IMG/VR virus record: IMGVR_UViG_3300036791_001073
Location: 1 to 36,498 of that record
DNA: 36,498 nucleotides
Direction: 5' to 3' (one strand)
From: a virus
The notes beneath the pieces were generated by a model. It searched no databases. It was given only the letters and a program-made list of their open reading frames with translations, and had not been told where the DNA came from. How positions within the stretch are numbered: position 1 is the stretch's first letter; every line of letters starts with the position of its first letter. A program made the translations under genes and the position numbers. Shown here piece after piece: positions 1,713 through 35,669 of this stretch.

Positions 1713-2146
1713 GGGCCGGCGCTCCGGTAGGCTTGCCGGCAATGGTCGCGACAGTACGGCAGCCCCCCCGCGCTTTGCCTACCGCAATACCGGCGGTCGA
1801 GGACCGGGCCGTCGTGGCGCCATAGAGGCCACCTGCATGCGATTTCGGTCAGGTCCGCTATCAGGCAGCCCCCCACCGGCAAAAACGCACCAGCGGCCTT
1901 CGCACGGGCTTGGCGGGGCATCGTGGGGGGTGGGGCCAGCCTTGGCCTGATGTCCCGCTTGGGCGGGTTGGGCTTGGGCGGGTTGGGCGGGTTCTTGGTC
2001 AATGGTACGCCGATACGGCTAAGCTTCGAGATCACCGAATTGCGGGTGCACCCGAGGTCGGCGGCGATGTCGCGGGCCGACTTGGTCGCCGCCAATTCCC
2101 GCGCCCGGTCGGTGCGCTCGGCCGTCCAGAAATCCGAGTGGCTCAT
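1709..2146 (-). CDS. gcrA: GcrA family cell-cycle regulator homologue, 145 aa
   Basis: GcrA is an alphaproteobacterial sigma-70 co-regulator that recognises methylated GANTC sites at promoters. Residues 1-50 form a helix-turn-helix region (FWTAERTDRARELAATKSAR, then DIAADLGCTRNSVISKLSRI). Residues ~52-90 are a Pro-rich linker. The C-terminal part has the Cys/His signature of the family: CRWPL, then RRYCGRQ, then YCRDHCRQAY at about residues 105-142. The gene overlaps dcm upstream and rep downstream by ATGA junctions. A phage copy could redirect host RNA polymerase or respond to host CcrM methylation; that role is inference, while family membership is well supported by both ends of the protein. 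Confidence 0.88.
   Translation of the reverse strand: MSHSDFWTAERTDRARELAATKSARDIAADLGCTRNSVISKLSRIGVPLTKNPPNPPKPNPPKRDIRPRLAPPPTMPRQARAKAAGAFLPVGGCLIADLTEIACRWPLWRHDGPVLDRRYCGRQSAGGLPYCRDHCRQAYRSAGP
1961..1993 (+). repeat. GGGCGGGTT G-rich mini-repeat within gcrA
   Basis: Three near-copies of GGGCGGGTTGGG occur in 33 bases, encoding the Pro/Asn/Lys linker of GcrA on the minus strand. The plus strand has at least four runs of three G, so a G-quadruplex could form. It is probably a by-product of slippage in a Pro-rich linker. Confidence 0.5.
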
Positions 2147-3078
2147 GCCGGCGCCTTCATTGCCCTGATGAACTCCGCCGCGACCTGCGGGACGATCGCA
2201 TTGCCGGCGGCGCGCAGCTTTCCCACTCGGGCGGGTACCCCATGAGCCAAAGGCTGAATGCCGGGTTTAGTTGGCCGCGCTTTTCCATCGGTGCAGGGGA
2301 GCCACCGGACATCGGACCAGAAGTGAACTGATGCGCCTGCTCGCTGAGCGGCTTGCCGCGTGTCTGTTCCGCCCGCGACTGATGGAAGGCTTCCGTTCCC
2401 TCGCTCTTGAAGTCGCGGGCCCGTGGCGTCGCCCAGCCGGCCGCATCGGTCAGCGTCGGCCAGATCGCCATCCACACCGCCGTCGCAAGATTCGGATTGC
2501 ATCCCCCGCCACGCTCCGCTCGAGATGTCTTCATCTTCGCAGCGTAGCCATCGCCCTTCGCGATCTCCAACGCCACCGGAGTCGGCCACGAACCACAGTC
2601 TGTTCCTGACGTGCGGCGCGCCGACGCTGCAAGCTGGAAGCACGGCCGCCCCCGCGGCGTAGCCTTCCGCCTCCAGGTCAGCGAAAACAGCGTCGAGCCA
2701 GCCCCATCCAATTGCTGCCTCAACCTGCTCTCCAAGGATCGTTGCAGGGCGGCACTCGCGGATGAGACGGAACCAATGCGGCCATAGGTGGCGTTCGTCG
2801 GTGCCACCAGCTCCTTTGCCCGCGGTCGAGAACGGCTGGCAGGGACAGCTGCCTGTCCAAACAGGTCGATCATCGGGCCACCCGGCGAGGCGCAGAGCGA
2901 GCGACCATCCGGCGATGCCGGCGAACCAATGACATTGGTCGTATCCACGCACGTCATCGGGCTGCACATCGACGATGCTGCGCTCGTCGACATCGCCGGG
3001 GGCGATGTGTCCGGCGGCGACGAGGTTGCGGAGCCATTGAGCGGCATAGGGGTCGACCTCATTGTAGTAACCGGTCAT
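2143..3078 (-). CDS. Cytosine-C5 DNA methyltransferase, 311 aa
   Basis: The enzyme transfers a methyl group from S-adenosylmethionine to C5 of cytosine in a specific DNA site. Motif I is FAGIAGWSLAL (about residues 52-62, SAM binding). Motif IV is GSCPCQPFS with the catalytic Cys at about residue 80. Motif VI is present as GEQVE rather than the usual ENV. Motif VIII is PHVRNRLWFVA (~155-165), and motif X is GNAIVPQVAAEFI near the end. The start at 3078 (MTGYYNEVD) overlaps the stop of rusA by ATGA; a longer frame exists but lacks conserved sequence. No cognate restriction enzyme lies nearby, so this looks like an orphan phage methylase, probably protecting phage DNA or altering promoter binding. 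The target site cannot be read from sequence. Confidence 0.9.
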   Translation of the reverse strand: MTGYYNEVDPYAAQWLRNLVAAGHIAPGDVDERSIVDVQPDDVRGYDQCHWFAGIAGWSLALRLAGWPDDRPVWTGSCPCQPFSTAGKGAGGTDERHLWPHWFRLIRECRPATILGEQVEAAIGWGWLDAVFADLEAEGYAAGAAVLPACSVGAPHVRNRLWFVADSGGVGDREGRWLRCEDEDISSGAWRGMQSESCDGGVDGDLADADRCGRLGDATGPRLQERGNGSLPSVAGGTDTRQAAQRAGASVHFWSDVRWLPCTDGKARPTKPGIQPLAHGVPARVGKLRAAGNAIVPQVAAEFIRAMKAPA

Positions 3079-3488
3079 GCCGCCACCCATGGGCGCAGCC
3101 GCACCAGGACGCCGCTGTCCGGCGGCCCCCACCTCACTTCGAGGCGCTCGCAATGGCGGTCGTTGTCGATCAGCTGGACGCGCTGCAGCCAGTCCAGCAG
3201 CGGCTTGACCCTGTTGTCGATGTCGGAAGGCCGTGTTCCGCGCTCGAATTCGAATTCGCACTCAAACTCGCAGAGAAGCTTCGCCTGCGGGAACCGGCGC
3301 TCGGCCCGCGCTAGCACTAGCGCCATGTCGGCTTGGCGCACCCACCGCTTGACGATGGGTGATTTATTTCCCAATTTTGCCGTGAACCGGTTGACGGACG
3401 GCGGCCGCGGCAGGCGCAATTCCAGCCAGTCGATACCCCCCTGCATTAGGGGGTTGACATTTTGTAATAACTCCGGCGATTCCGTCAT
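3075..3488 (-). CDS. rusA: RusA-family Holliday junction resolvase, 137 aa
   Basis: RusA dimers cut four-way DNA junctions formed during recombination-dependent phage replication. The signature is present: RLPRPPSVNRF (residues ~25-35), then PSDIDNRVKPLLDWL with acidic residues at about 89 and 91, and LIDNDRH with Asp at about 108 and 110, matching the metal-binding set. An acidic/aromatic repeat (CEFECEFEFE) precedes the motif. Length is typical. The start ATG 3488 lies just downstream of a perfect TATAAT on the minus strand (3498-3493), so its mRNA could begin almost at the start codon. It is the first gene of the ATGA-linked rusA-dcm-gcrA-rep chain. Confidence 0.88.
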   Translation of the reverse strand: MTESPELLQNVNPLMQGGIDWLELRLPRPPSVNRFTAKLGNKSPIVKRWVRQADMALVLARAERRFPQAKLLCEFECEFEFERGTRPSDIDNRVKPLLDWLQRVQLIDNDRHCERLEVRWGPPDSGVLVRLRPWVAA

Positions 3489-4498: not shown

Positions 4499-4536
4499 TA
4501 GACAAATTGTCCTTGCCTCTGGACAGCCCGTTTGAT
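4499..4536 (+). promoter_or_regulatory. Operator and promoter of the recombination operon
   Basis: TAGACAAATTGTCCT (4499-4513) is a near-copy of the repressor operator. It overlaps a candidate -35 TTGTCC (4508-4513), which is 17 bases from a candidate -10 TTTGAT (4531-4536). A TGGACA half-site follows at 4520-4525. The arrangement suggests repression of the downstream exo/ERF genes by the repressor or the Cro-like protein. The promoter match is moderate (4 of 6 in each box). Confidence 0.5.
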
Positions 4537-4538
4537 AC

Positions 4539-4561
4539 GGTCTCCCCGACGATGGGAGACC
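4539..4561 (+). promoter_or_regulatory. 8-bp inverted repeat covering the exo ribosome binding site
   Basis: GGTCTCCC (4539-4546) and GGGAGACC (4554-4561) are perfect inverted copies with a 7-base loop. The right arm contains the GGGAG Shine-Dalgarno of the GTG start at 4565. In RNA this would hide the ribosome binding site; in DNA it could be a protein-binding palindrome. If transcription starts near 4543, only part of the left arm would be in the transcript. Confidence 0.55.
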
Positions 4562-4564
4562 AGG

Positions 4565-5347
4565 GTGCTAACCTCACATCAGATCGAGCAGCGCCGCGGT
4601 AAGTTGACCGCAAGTCGTGTCGCATGCCTGATGACCGGCGATGCCGTCGCCATCATGCGGCTTTACCGCGAGATGACCGGCGAAGAACAGCCCGAGGATC
4701 TCTCGCGCGTCTGGCCGGTGCGTCTTGGCGAGGCTACAGAGCAGCTCAATCTCGATTGGCTCGAACAGTCCGGCGTGGCGCTCGTGCGGCGCGGCCATGT
4801 CATCACTCATCCCCGGCACGACTGGGCAGCCTGCACGATAGATGCCTGGTGTGTGGAATTGGATTGCCCGTGCGAGGCCAAGCACGTCGGTGGGCGGGAG
4901 CCTCTGGAGATCGTCGTCGAACGCTATCAGCCGCAAATGCAGTGGCAGATGGAATGCACCGGGGCAACGCAATGCGTGCTGTCGGTCATCATGGGCGCCA
5001 ATCCCCCGGTGGTGGAATATATCCGGCGCGATGAGGAATATGCCGCCGAGATGGTCAGGCGCGGCCGGCAATTCATGACCTGCGTCTCCAATCTGCAGGA
5101 GCCTGTGGCGCTGCCCGCCGTTCCTGCGCCGGTGGACGCGACCAAGGTCATCGACATGACCGGGAACAACATGTGGGCCGACAATGCCGCCGTCTGGCTC
5201 GCAGTGAAAGATGCTGCGGCAGAGTGTGAAACCGCATCAAAGATACTCAAGGCCACCGTTCCAGCCGATGCGAAGAAAGCATGGGGACACGGCGTGCGTA
5301 TTACACGTGATCGCGCCGGACGGCTGTCGCTTCGGGAGGACACATGA
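4565..5347 (+). CDS. YqaJ-family phage exonuclease, 260 aa
   Basis: This belongs to the lambda Exo-like YqaJ nucleases, which resect double-stranded ends to give 3' single strands for the annealing protein. Visible motifs are RRGKLTASRVACLM (residues ~10-23), LGEATEQ with Glu (~54-60), the active-site Asp in CTIDAW (~93), E-x-K in CEAKH (104/106), and QMQWQME (~124-130). The GTG start has GGGAG 6 bases upstream; an in-frame ATG at 4532 lacks such a site and lies within the promoter region. The stop overlaps the ERF gene start by ATGA. Exo next to an annealing protein is the standard two-gene phage recombination module. Confidence 0.9.
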   Translation: MLTSHQIEQRRGKLTASRVACLMTGDAVAIMRLYREMTGEEQPEDLSRVWPVRLGEATEQLNLDWLEQSGVALVRRGHVITHPRHDWAACTIDAWCVELDCPCEAKHVGGREPLEIVVERYQPQMQWQMECTGATQCVLSVIMGANPPVVEYIRRDEEYAAEMVRRGRQFMTCVSNLQEPVALPAVPAPVDATKVIDMTGNNMWADNAAVWLAVKDAAAECETASKILKATVPADAKKAWGHGVRITRDRAGRLSLREDT

Positions 5348-6258
5348 CCACCGACCTCATGCAAATCCCGGAAGATCCGGCGCCGCTCATGCACATGATC
5401 GAGCGCGCGGCGCGTGACCCCAGCTTTCCGATCGATCGGCTGCAACAGCTGATGGCCCTGTACGACGCGCGAGGGGCGAAGGAGGCCGAGAAGGCCTGGA
5501 ACATCGCGATGGCCGCAGCGCAGGCGGAAATGATCCCGGTAGCCAAGGACAGCGACAACCTGCAGACGCGATCGAGATACGCGAGCTATGCCGCGCTGGA
5601 TGCCGCGGTGAGGCCGATTTATTCGAAGCACGGGTTCGCGCTGTCGTTCAACACCGTACCGGACGCGAATGTGAACAGCATCCGGATTGTGTGCGACGTG
5701 GTCAACGGCGGATTTTGTCGGCGATACTCCATCAACATGCCGGCCGACGGCGTCGGCGCCAAGGGCAGCGCCGTGATGACGCGCACCCATGCCGCCGGTT
5801 CCGCGGTCACCTACGGCATGCGGTATCTGCTGAAGATGATCTTCAACATCGCGGTCGGCGAGGGCGATGACGACGGCAATGCCGCCGGCAGGCGCATGCC
5901 GCCACCGCGCTACGGCGCCAATCCAATGAGATCACCCCCGGCGTATCGCGACGACGACGACGACTCCCAGCCGCCGGGGGATGATGCCCCGCCCTCCACG
6001 AGCCACTCGACAGAGGGCGGGGCAGCCTCTCCCGCAGAGGACAGCATGCGGATTGCGCGGCTCGACGCCGAGCTGGGCGAGGCCGCCAAGCGTGGCATGG
6101 TCGAGCTGCAGGCCGCGTGGAGGAAGATACCTGCGTCCGACCAGAGGATACTCGAGGCCGCGAAGAACAAGCGCCACAAGCCAACCGCCATCAAGGCCGA
6201 CAATCAGGAGGGCAATGGAGATGGGTCGCCGAAAACTAGCAGCAAAGGAAGTGATTGA
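5344..6258 (+). CDS. erf: ERF-superfamily single-strand annealing protein, 304 aa
   Basis: ERF proteins coat and anneal complementary single strands in phage recombination and genome circularisation. The core spans about residues 35-180 and carries the family signature GSAVTYGMRYLL (~152-163) followed by DDDGN (~175-179). The C-terminal third is a disordered linker with an acidic run of five Asp and then a charged helical tail (RIARLDAELGEAAKRGMVEL), resembling the usual partner-binding tail of these proteins. It starts at the ATG overlapping the exo stop and ends inside the next gene, which begins 38 bases before its stop. Confidence 0.92.
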   Translation: MTTDLMQIPEDPAPLMHMIERAARDPSFPIDRLQQLMALYDARGAKEAEKAWNIAMAAAQAEMIPVAKDSDNLQTRSRYASYAALDAAVRPIYSKHGFALSFNTVPDANVNSIRIVCDVVNGGFCRRYSINMPADGVGAKGSAVMTRTHAAGSAVTYGMRYLLKMIFNIAVGEGDDDGNAAGRRMPPPRYGANPMRSPPAYRDDDDDSQPPGDDAPPSTSHSTEGGAASPAEDSMRIARLDAELGEAAKRGMVELQAAWRKIPASDQRILEAAKNKRHKPTAIKADNQEGNGDGSPKTSSKGSD

Positions 6259-7550: not shown

Positions 7551-8022
7551 AGGCATGGCAGGCGAGGCAGGCAAGGCGAGGGAAGGCGGGGCTAGGTCTG
7601 GTCTGGCCCGGCGGGGCGCGGCAGGCGTGGTCTGGTGAGCGGGGGCACGGTGCGGTCTGGCGTGGCAGGCACGGCCAGGTCAGGTTTGTTAGGGCAAGGT
7701 TTGGCGAGGCAAGGCAGGCATGGCGAGGCCAAGCGAGGGCCAGGCTCGGTTGGGCTGGGTCGGCATGGTAGGCATGGTTGGTGTGGCGAGGCACGGCGTG
7801 GATGGTGCGGCAAGGCAGGCCGGGTCGGGTGCGGCAAGGCGGGGCGAGGTCTGGTATGGCGGGGCGGGGCAGGCAAGGCCGGGCAGGCGCGGCGGGGTCC
7901 GGTTAGGTTAGGCAGGGCAGGGCAGGCACGGCAGGGCGAGGTCTGGTCTGGCGAGGCAGGCGTGGCGAGGCGTGGCAGGCGAGGTCCGGTTAGGCAAGGT
8001 CCGGCGAGGCAAGGCTCGGCAG
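7551..8022 (+). repeat. Degenerate (YNNGG)n pentamer array, about 470 bp
   Basis: From the end of the upstream gene to the Shine-Dalgarno of the next, the plus strand is almost entirely pentamers ending in GG (caagg, cgagg, tctgg, cgtgg, ttagg, tccgg and so on), about 90 units, with occasional 4-mers such as cagg shifting the phase. The first base of a unit is nearly always C or T and positions 2-3 vary freely. Because the unit is not a multiple of three and lacks stop triplets, long open frames appear in several frames on both strands. These are not supported as genes. The strand bias (GG on the coding-side strand) favours G-quadruplex or R-loop formation when transcribed. Function unknown. 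Confidence 0.9.
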
Positions 8023-8032
8023 GAGTGAGAGC

Positions 8033-8435: not shown

Positions 8436-8528
8436 ATGGCCAACCGGCTGCACACACTGGCCGAGGCCGCCGATGATCTGCTTCGCATTTATCCACACCT
8501 TTTGTTAGGGTTAGCAAGCTATGTCTGA
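8436..8528 (+). CDS. Possible small gene, 30 aa
   Basis: The frame (MANRLHTLAEAADDLLRIYP and ten more residues) starts at an ATG with GGAG 5 bases upstream, 4 bases after the previous stop. It ends in a TGA inside the ATG of the Xis-like gene (ATGTCTGA), the same junction as at 8181-8188. It may be a true peptide or only a leader that couples translation into the Xis-like gene, which has a weak ribosome site of its own. It contains a perfect DnaA box. Confidence 0.5.
   Translation: MANRLHTLAEAADDLLRIYPHLLLGLASYV
8489..8497 (+). promoter_or_regulatory. DnaA-box sequence TTATCCACA
   Basis: An exact match to the consensus DnaA box within the small 30-codon frame upstream of the Xis-like gene. 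A single box is weak evidence of an origin. It may allow DnaA-dependent regulation or be chance. Confidence 0.4.
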
Positions 8529-8862
8529 CCAGCGCGAACGTGAGCGTGGCACTGTGCCCGACGCCGTCCAGATCCTCGGGATCGGGATGCGGACCGTGGA
8601 GGCAATGGCAGCTCGCGGGGCGATCCCTAGTGCAGCCAAGATCGGCGGCCGCTGGACATTCAATCTGCGTGCTCTGCGGGCATACGTCAAAGAGCGGGAG
8701 CGAGAGACATGGCAAAACGCAGAGCGCCGCCTGGATGCTTTTGGCGGGGAGATATCCTTTTCGGCCGCAAGCGCATCAATGGCCGCCTCGTCCGGTGGTC
8801 GCTCGAAACAAGCGATCCAGCAGTTGCTCGTCAGCGCCAAAAAGCAGGCGCGAGCAAGCTGA
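8521..8862 (+). CDS. Excisionase-like winged-helix protein, 113 aa
   Basis: Residues ~10-60 (VPDAVQILGIGMRTVEAMAA, then RGAIPSAAKIGGRWTFNLRA, then LRAYV) follow the excisionase/MerR-type pattern: a helix, a turn, a wing with IGGRW and a final helix. Such proteins bend attP DNA and steer integrase toward excision. The charged C-terminus (YVKERERETWQ and onward) overlaps the first 51 codons of the integrase gene in another frame, so the two are overprinted. Translation is probably coupled to the preceding small frame. The HTH assignment is good; the Xis role rests on its position beside int. Confidence 0.75.
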   Translation: MSDQRERERGTVPDAVQILGIGMRTVEAMAARGAIPSAAKIGGRWTFNLRALRAYVKERERETWQNAERRLDAFGGEISFSAASASMAASSGGRSKQAIQQLLVSAKKQARAS

Positions 8863-9767
8863 CTGCTGTCAAGCATGGCGACATCACGCGGACATATGCT
8901 GACACGATCGAGTTATGGTCCAAGTGGATCGGACGACAAGTAAGCCCCGGCACCGTCAAGCGCTACGCCGTTTCGCTCGGCCAGCTTGATGGGCTTATCG
9001 GCGATGCACGCCAGATCTTGGATATCGACGGTAAGTTGATCGCGGAGATTGTTCGTGCTCGCACCGCCGCCGGGGCAACCAACGCGACCATCAAGCGCGA
9101 CCTCGGCGCTCTTTCTAGCGTAATGAACTTCGCCATGGACCAGGGATGGATCGAGACCAACCCAGTCCTGCCCCGGCTGAGGCGGATCAAGGAGCGGCGC
9201 AATCCCATCGTGCTTCCGATCAGGCGCGACATCGACCTCGTAATCGAGCGGGCGCCCGGCATGCTTAAGGATCTGGTTGAAGCGGCAATCGCTACCGGCG
9301 CGCGGCAAACCGAACTGCTTAGTGCCAAGCGCGAGCATGTCGACCACGCCCGCCGGCAGATCACACTCTACAAGACCAAGCGGAACAAGCCGCGGACGAT
9401 CGACCTGGAACCGCTCGGCGGCTATCTGCTCATCCAAAGCCTCCCGACCTATGTTGGATCGCCGCTGCTGTTCTGGCATTCAAACGGCCAGCCATATCGG
9501 AACTTCTCCAGCCAGTTTGCCGGTGTGGTCGCTCGTGCGCGCGAGTGGGCGGTGGCGAACGGCGCCGAGTTCCGCCGATTTCGCTTCCATGACCTGCGCC
9601 ATCTGCACGCCGTCGAGTTCCTGAAAGCGGGGGGCGACATTTACGACCTTTGCAAGCGCATGGGACACTCGTCGGTCAAGGTGACTGAAGGATACCTGGC
9701 CTATCTGACCGCAGACGAAGAGCGCGCCGCAAAGAGCCAAAAAATCAGCGTTGGGGGTCGGCAATGA
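8709..9767 (+). CDS. int: Tyrosine recombinase integrase, 352 aa
   Basis: This site-specific recombinase would join attP to the bacterial attB and, with Xis, reverse the reaction. The catalytic set is visible: Arg ~199 in TGARQTELLSA, Lys ~222-224 in LYKTKRNKPR, FHDLRH with His 294 and Arg 297, MGHSS with His 320, and the nucleophile Tyr 329 in TEGYL. The N-terminal ~60 residues are a basic arm-type DNA-binding domain, followed by a core-binding SAM-like domain (~64-155). The start ATG has a GGAG 8 bases upstream and lies inside the Xis-like gene. The stop overlaps the second Xis-like gene by ATGA. The adjacent attP fits this enzyme. Confidence 0.95.
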   Translation: MAKRRAPPGCFWRGDILFGRKRINGRLVRWSLETSDPAVARQRQKAGASKLTAVKHGDITRTYADTIELWSKWIGRQVSPGTVKRYAVSLGQLDGLIGDARQILDIDGKLIAEIVRARTAAGATNATIKRDLGALSSVMNFAMDQGWIETNPVLPRLRRIKERRNPIVLPIRRDIDLVIERAPGMLKDLVEAAIATGARQTELLSAKREHVDHARRQITLYKTKRNKPRTIDLEPLGGYLLIQSLPTYVGSPLLFWHSNGQPYRNFSSQFAGVVARAREWAVANGAEFRRFRFHDLRHLHAVEFLKAGGDIYDLCKRMGHSSVKVTEGYLAYLTADEERAAKSQKISVGGRQ

Positions 9768-10087
9768 AACTTCTTACCATCGCTGCCGCAGCAGATCGCC
9801 TCAGTGTGTCCATAGACACGCTTCGGGGTCTGGTGAGAGACGGCGAGATGCGATTTGTTAATGTGGGCCGTGGCAAGGTCAAGCCGCGCATCATGTTTAC
9901 CGATCGCGACATTGATGACTTCGTCACCAGACGCAGTAGCAGGGTCACGTTGTCTAAATCGCGAAAGGCGAACGGCGCCGCCGCTTTGGGTTCAGGCGAG
10001 GGGTTCGCCGCACTACGGAAAAAAGTGGAGGGAATGACCTCTTCCGAGAGAGCCGAGTACTTCAAGCGCAATCGTGCGGGTTCCTAG
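9764..10087 (+). CDS. Second excisionase/HTH-family DNA-binding protein, 107 aa
   Basis: Starts at the ATG overlapping the integrase stop. Residues 1-60 (KLLTIAAAADRLSVSIDTLR, then GLVRDGEMRFVNVGRG, then IMFTDRDIDDFV) are a standard helix-turn-helix excisionase domain: 'aAa.LsvS.dTLR.LvrdGe...v..GrGk...r.rf...DiddFv'. The C-terminal half is basic and Ser-rich. It ends 6 bases before the first attP arm site. With the Xis-like gene at 8521 this gives two candidate directionality factors flanking int. Which one acts as excisionase, and which as a regulator of int, cannot be decided from sequence. Confidence 0.82.
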   Translation: MKLLTIAAAADRLSVSIDTLRGLVRDGEMRFVNVGRGKVKPRIMFTDRDIDDFVTRRSSRVTLSKSRKANGAAALGSGEGFAALRKKVEGMTSSERAEYFKRNRAGS

Positions 10088-10197
10088 GATGCAGTATCCC
10101 AAATCGTATCCCATATGGGATACCGTATCCCGCCACCAAGGTCGAGAAGTTCGCAATTCTCAAAGGTTTCTGAAGGATCGCGGAAATTTTGAAGCTT

Positions 10198-10239
10198 GGT
10201 TTAGCAAACCGCCGCCTTCAGCCACTCGGCCACATCTCC
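10198..10239 (-). other. attP core: 5' half of tRNA-Ser(GCT)
   Basis: 42 bases match the first half of a bacterial tRNA-Ser with anticodon GCT and then diverge. The 3' half is absent, so this is an attachment core and not a functional tRNA gene. On integration it would replace the 5' half of the host tRNA. Confidence 0.8.
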
Positions 10240-10251
10240 GTAGGCGAAAAA

Positions 10252-10280
10252 GCCTTACGATATCATAGGTTAGGTGTCAA
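10252..10280 (-). promoter_or_regulatory. Candidate promoter upstream of the tRNA-Ser half
   Basis: A perfect TTGACA (10280-10275, minus strand) is 17 bases from TAAGGC (10257-10252), with the expected start a few bases before the mature tRNA 5' end at 10239. The -10 match is weak. If active it would drive the hybrid tRNA-Ser after integration. Confidence 0.35.
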
Positions 10281-10415
10281 CCGTGACGGCATCGCCTGAA
10301 CGCAAAAAACGCACAAAACGAGACCAAAACGGTGCAGGAGTATCCCAAAAAGTATCCCACGAATGGGATACTGCGGAAAACGAGTTCGCGATCCGTTCTT
10401 TCGAATTCTCGCGAT

Positions 10416-35593: not shown

Positions 35594-35669
35594 TGGCAGA
35601 AGTGGAGGGACTCGAACCCCCAACCCCCGGTTTTGGAGACCGGCGCTCTAGCCATTGAGCTACACTCCT
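35594..35669 (-). tRNA. tRNA-Trp (anticodon CCA)
   Basis: A complete 76-base cloverleaf with encoded CCA. The acceptor AGGAGTG pairs with CACTTCT (one G-U). The D stem is GCTC/GAGC, the anticodon stem CCGGT/ACCGG around loop CTCCAAA (anticodon CCA), and the T stem GGGGG/CCCTC with loop TTCGAGT. The discriminator base is G. The first base lies inside the TAG stop of the upstream protein gene, so RNase P processing would cut that mRNA at its stop codon. Phage-encoded tRNAs usually support late translation or replace host tRNAs damaged by defence systems. Confidence 0.96.

Follow-up and report, generated by a model that had tools for sequence, protein, structure and literature searches.

A GTATCCC repeat array around a tRNA half

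The 36,498-base window analysed here is the entire IMG/VR virus record IMGVR_UViG_3300036791_001073, an uncultivated viral contig. At positions 10094-10371, directly downstream of genes for a tyrosine integrase (Int) and an excisionase (Xis)-like protein, half of a tRNA-Ser gene is enclosed by copies of the heptamer GTATCCC, a region that we read as a phage attachment site (attP). The left flank carries two direct copies on the plus strand at 10094-10100 and 10106-10112 (12-bp pitch), an inverted copy at 10117-10123 (minus strand) and a fourth copy at 10125-10131 (plus strand). The right flank carries a direct pair of the same pitch at 10340-10346 and 10352-10358 (plus strand), followed by an inverted copy at 10365-10371 (minus strand). 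The second left site and the inverted copy behind it build the 18-bp palindrome GTATCCCATATGGGATAC at 10106-10123. GTATCCC occurs eight times in the window, compared with a mean of 3.2 after shuffling, and seven of the eight copies fall inside 10094-10371, where 0.035 would be expected in 280 bp (Poisson P for at least seven copies ~1.4e-14). The motif GTATCCC-N5-GTATCCC is present exactly twice, once on each flank of the tRNA segment, and was not recovered in any of 100 shuffled windows. A second contig, IMGVR_UViG_3300036832_001611, is 100% identical to the window across 13.3 kb including this site; elsewhere in the sequence collections searched the array was not found, and 12 genomes of relatives yielded one stray pair in one genome.

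The segment between the flanks, at 10198-10239 on the minus strand, is GGAGATGTGGCCGAGTGGCTGAAGGCGGCGGTTTGCTAAACC. The identity is exactly 42 bp and corresponds to nucleotides 1-42 of the intact tRNA-Ser(GCT) gene of L090, present in one of 397 genomes from the order of a relative's host. It ends in the palindrome GGTTTAGCAAACC (10198-10210), the anticodon stem-loop and presumed core-type Int sites, with the 7-nucleotide anticodon loop TTAGCAA (10201-10207) as the presumed 7-bp overlap (crossover) region, judging by the ends of attL and attR, the two junctions of an integrated element, in relatives. An Rfam scan of the region called no tRNA; its match to the small RNA ncS035, at 25 bits compared with a gathering score of 79, lies below threshold and was taken as chance. 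RNA folding of the tRNA half gave nothing unusual (z 0.2). When phage and plasmid records were searched for near matches at the DNA level, the hits covered the tRNA part only.

These results bear out a first-pass annotation made from the letters of the window, which had described on each flank a direct GTATCCC pair 12 bases apart followed by an inverted copy, an extra left copy with an 18-base palindrome, and a tRNA-Ser identity in between. A repeat search places the repeats at exactly the same coordinates, and the exact match to tRNA-Ser(GCT) confirms the tRNA. Its description of the arm sites as symmetric holds for the pair and the inverted copy, which both flanks share, but not for the spacer ahead of the inverted copy (4 bp left, 6 bp right), the distance from arm pair to core or crossover (110 bp left, 136 bp right) or the fourth copy, which is confined to the left. 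That the half carried by the phage is the 5' half, the less ordinary one, had been missed.

A lambda-type integrase with two Xis-like neighbours

The integrase gene (8709-9767, plus strand) encodes a heterobivalent protein of 352 amino acids with matches to PF00589, PF02899 and phrog_1, and the complete invariant set R-K-H-R-H-Y is present as R199, K224, H294/R297, H320 and Y329. In an AlphaFold model (mean predicted local distance difference test score, pLDDT, of 91) the N-terminal domain, residues 10-56, forms three strands and a helix and is followed by the core-binding and then the catalytic domain; the best fold match in the PDB is full-length lambda Int (1z1b). According to the model, the integrase thus has a separate, predicted arm-binding domain at its N-terminus, as lambda Int does. 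A profile search finds its subfamily mostly in Alphaproteobacteria, along with many viral contigs.

Immediately 5' of int lies a gene for an Xis-like helix-turn-helix (HTH) protein of 113 amino acids (8521-8862, plus strand; phrog_66 'excisionase and transcriptional regulator', E 7e-6). A second Xis-like protein of the HTH_17 type, 107 amino acids long (9764-10087, plus strand; PF12728; phrog_66, E 2e-4), is encoded by a gene that overlaps the end of int and has its stop codon 6 bp ahead of the first GTATCCC. The two do not align with each other, and a duplicate origin was dropped. The relative L004 likewise has a short HTH-like open reading frame directly 5' of int (L004:3801-4148).

Arm-site spacing is shared among relatives and arm letters vary

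Wherever the target of an inspected subfamily member could be recognised, it was a tRNA gene (Ser, Thr, Arg and others). In the viral relatives, arm sites were sought by a letter-blind scan for two direct pairs of 12-bp pitch around the core. Among 38 scanned regions, 23 score at least 35 of 42, the top value of any shuffle set, each at the permutation floor of p=0.005; a few of the 23 are duplicate entries or have no recognised core between the pairs. About 20 attPs of relatives thus share the plan. The letters themselves differ from relative to relative (GGCACA, GGACACA, GGCCACA, TATCACA, TGTGGT and others), with GTATCCC as one of the set. L111, for example, combines TATCACA-type arms with a tRNA-Ser(GCT) 5' half as well, and L010, with 61% Int identity, has GTATAGC-N5-GTATCGC to the left of a tRNA-Ser(GCT) 5' half; no closer integrase turned up in a search of 149 genomes from the host family of L010, where 61% stayed the best value. 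Pair-to-crossover distances are nearly the same in the window (110/136 bp), L111 (109/136 bp) and L004 (109/135 bp), with Int identities to the window of 54% for L111 and 43% for L004, and of 40% between these two.

Similarity of arm letters correlates with identity over residues 1-62 of Int (Mantel test, r 0.23, p 0.005); no correlation was seen with the core-binding (r -0.02) or the catalytic domain (r 0.07). This tracking of the N-terminal domain is the best computational evidence in support of a role of the direct pairs as Int arm-type sites.

Across the viral relatives L004, L111, L114-L119, L124 and L135-L187, the distances between arm pairs and from pair to crossover fall into classes about 11 bp apart, with pair separations of 197, 223, 233-234, 243-246 and 267. 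Because family comparisons use related sequences, the tests were rerun on 11-13 representatives with less than 60% Int identity, for which the scan p is ~2e-4 to 1e-3 and the best period 11.2-11.6, not 10.5. The quantisation suggests a helical-phase constraint on the intasome, and a host bending protein (IHF or similar) between core and arms would fit such distances.

Integrated relatives carry a complete tRNA at the far junction

In seven integrated relatives, the int-side junction consists of a 5' tRNA fragment with the native upstream region of the host, and the far junction of a complete tRNA whose 5' half and upstream DNA come from the element. The block shared by attL and attR measures 31-43 bp, starts at tRNA nucleotide 1 or 1-2 nucleotides earlier, and ends inside the anticodon loop or shortly after it; where a point difference marks the int-side copy, the end falls shortly before the loop. 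The finished chromosome of Sphingobium sp. SYK-6 carries both tRNA copies, 49.8 kb apart. As the identity between the junctions stops within or close to the anticodon loop, strand exchange there is the simplest reading for the relatives, and we extend it provisionally to the phage of the window.

The subfamily is not uniform in its layout. In L114 and L116 the tRNA-Ser(GCT) 5' half and a promoter-like module lie between int and the crossover, an order in which the int-side junction would receive the complete tRNA. This one integrase subfamily thus uses both orientations and both tRNA halves.

A promoter-like module upstream of the tRNA half

On the minus strand, the hexamers TTGACA (10275-10280) and TAAGGC (10252-10257), -35-like and -10-like and separated by 17 bp, form a module spanning 10280-10252 that ends 12 bp 5' of tRNA nucleotide 1. 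Similar modules occur in the attPs of relatives: the pattern TTGAnn-N16-18-TAnnnn lies 10-13 bp 5' of nucleotide 1 in all 12 extracted Ser(GCT) cases, namely ten viral attPs (window included) and two integrated elements; two further viral attPs, L184 and L187, could not be extracted. It is also present in the tRNA-Thr element of SYK-6, and shuffling produced it at a rate of 0-5% per case. Of nine upstream regions native to the host, five hold a similar module. From this predicted module, the element DNA would be the source of the promoter for the restored tRNA.

A requirement for the promoter was also considered as the cause of the fixed right-arm distance and rejected, since L004 carries a 3' half, needs no promoter there and has the same distance. 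Five Methylobacterium elements (L091, L092, L095, L100 and L104) have a conserved stretch 5' of the element-borne tRNA-Thr 5' half, TGACG..GAAACC..TTTCTCAA.GGTTTC, that differs from the TTGAC-17-TA module and is perhaps a different promoter or a binding site.

Interpretation and alternatives

We interpret the region as an intact attP that belongs to a temperate phage with a probably alphaproteobacterial host and is served by a lambda-type heterobivalent tyrosine integrase, and assign this reading as a whole a probability of about 0.9. A complete attP, as the first-pass annotation had proposed, is supported by the adjacent integrase resembling lambda Int, the arm-core-arm plan and distances of relatives, their attL/attR pairs, and arm letters that follow the Int N-terminal domain. 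The site shares with lambda-type systems the integrase residues and arm-type sites that are repeated to the left and right of the core, and like 5'-fragment sites it carries the tRNA from nucleotide 1 to the anticodon stem-loop, with the junction layout taken from the seven relatives. In the proposed course of integration, the Int N-terminal domain would bind the two GTATCCC pairs as arm-type sites, and the core-binding and catalytic domains would act at GGTTTAGCAAACC, exchanging strands over the 7-bp loop TTAGCAA of the host tRNA-Ser(GCT). Because attP carries nucleotides 1-42, the 5' half of the host gene together with its promoter would be left at the int-side junction, and at the far junction the phage 5' half would join the host 3' half to rebuild a complete tRNA. 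Carriage of the 5' half means that the phage must supply a promoter, and the rebuilt tRNA would be transcribed from phage DNA, most likely via TTGACA-17-TAAGGC. One of the Xis-like HTH proteins, or both, would drive excision.

Several points weigh against this interpretation. Neither a lysogen of this phage nor any GTATCCC-armed one was found in the collections and genomes searched, an absence that is no disproof. None of the relatives scanned showed an exact inverted copy at the corresponding position behind its arm pairs, and the Mantel correlation is modest and one among four domain tests. As for the promoter, the pattern was formulated after viewing the sequences and is a pattern match only; by this pattern, the five Methylobacterium 5'-half elements are without the module; and a stricter generic sigma-70 scan gave no site, as the -10-like hexamer departs from TATAAT.

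The repeats could be imagined to have another function altogether, as an operator for a phage regulator (the HTH_17 protein or a repressor) that flanks a tRNA remnant by chance, with the Int arms elsewhere. Dimeric regulators typically bind sites such as the exact 18-bp palindrome, and the gene of an HTH protein ends just upstream of the array. However, it is the direct pairs of 12-bp pitch, flanking the core at kept distances, and not the inverted copies, that are the family trait, the inverted arrangements differ in spacer, unlike a fixed dimer site, and the arm letters follow the Int N-terminal domain; we consider an operator improbable. A decayed tRNA remnant or an assembly artefact without a working attP would be in keeping with an uncultivated contig that has no known lysogen, yet it is very hard to reconcile with an exact 42-bp match to a tRNA gene that is itself intact, with undamaged int and HTH genes, perfect arm repeats and the second contig identical across 13.3 kb.

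The function of the inverted copies is a narrower question, which leaves the attP reading itself in place. Two exact inverted GTATCCC were observed in the whole region, where ~0.03 would be expected by chance, and L010 has a one-mismatch inverted candidate identified by eye. They are probably extra Int arm contacts: the unequal spacers argue against a single rigid dimer site and for additional contacts of Int, and a comparable arm site of opposite orientation in mycobacteriophage Pixie was interpreted as an Int site (PMC3203893). They might instead be sites of an Xis-like HTH protein or a competing regulator, overlaid on true Int arms, where a dimer at the palindrome would displace Int and set the direction of recombination. 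The presence of the second HTH gene beside the array and of exact inverted copies on both flanks speaks for such an overlay, which would add to the attP rather than replace it, but the 4- and 6-bp spacers and the Pixie precedent make it doubtful.

Comparison with known attachment sites

Elements that target tRNA genes usually carry the 3' half in attP, so that the host promoter is kept. In Islander, 3760 islands with a 3' tDNA fragment were counted vs 159 with a 5' fragment (PMC4383910), placing the window attP in the minority, and 5'-end cases account for 9 of 88 in Sinorhizobium meliloti (PMC11476347). Mycobacteriophage cores, unlike this one, generally restore the 3' part of the target gene (PMC10865867). 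Crossover in the anticodon loop has been described before (PMC8371274), and the window attP, as read here, resembles known tRNA attPs of this kind, with crossover in the loop, the symmetric stem as core sites and an attP fragment that restores the gene (Williams 2002 sublocations; Islander, PMC4383910). As in the attPs of Cluster K mycobacteriophages, L5 and Giles, pairs of arm sites flank the core on both sides, and arm letters vary among related phages, which was attributed there to Int N-terminal residues (PMC3203893). The repeats of CrimD are 11 bp long and Pixie has one extra, oppositely oriented site (PMC3203893), whereas those of the window are 7 bp long with 12-bp pitch and one inverted copy per flank. 

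Expression of a restored tRNA from element DNA is considered rare in bacteria in an archaeal review (PMC8371274). The pTN3-type archaeal integrases also use the tRNA 5' half and express the restored tRNA from an element promoter, for which the module is the candidate here; in pTN3 this is the promoter of the integrase (PMC8371274), whereas in the window a separate promoter-like module lies between core and right arm, outside int. Further parallels are elements of the same Int subfamily in Sphingobium sp. SYK-6, Sphingomonas sp. SRS2, Sphingopyxis sp. H073 and Methylobacterium spp., with the 5' fragment on the int side and the complete tRNA on the far side. They differ in their GGCACA-type arms, and several target tRNA-Thr(TGT), not tRNA-Ser(GCT). 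The window attP therefore falls clearly within a known type of site, of which it represents the less common form, with unusual extra inverted arm copies. Among attPs with a 5' half, which are uncommon and oblige the phage to provide the promoter of the rebuilt host tRNA as well, it is a clean and readable example.

A more speculative possibility, to which we give little weight, is that this attP is a promoter-replacement cassette. In the lysogen, host tRNA-Ser(GCT) would come under a phage promoter located between the core and an Int arm pair, and by occupying the right arm Int or Xis could tie the supply of this tRNA to lysogeny or excision, with the inverted copies taking part in that switch. 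Across the relatives, arm letters change fast, and pitch and core distances are fixed or shifted in helical-sized steps. The relatives are therefore natural material from which to learn arm-site specificity, and this knowledge could aid the design of integration vectors for Alphaproteobacteria.

Other features of the window

The phage carries a complete tRNA-Trp(CCA) gene at 35594-35669 (minus strand). Low-complexity repeats of the GGCAGGGCAGG/GGCGAGGC type occupy 7900-8030, 5' of the xis-int genes. A DNA methyltransferase (phrog_363) is encoded at 2143-3261 on the minus strand, and the plus strand at 4532-6258 encodes a RecE-like exonuclease and, after it, an annealing protein of the ERF family.
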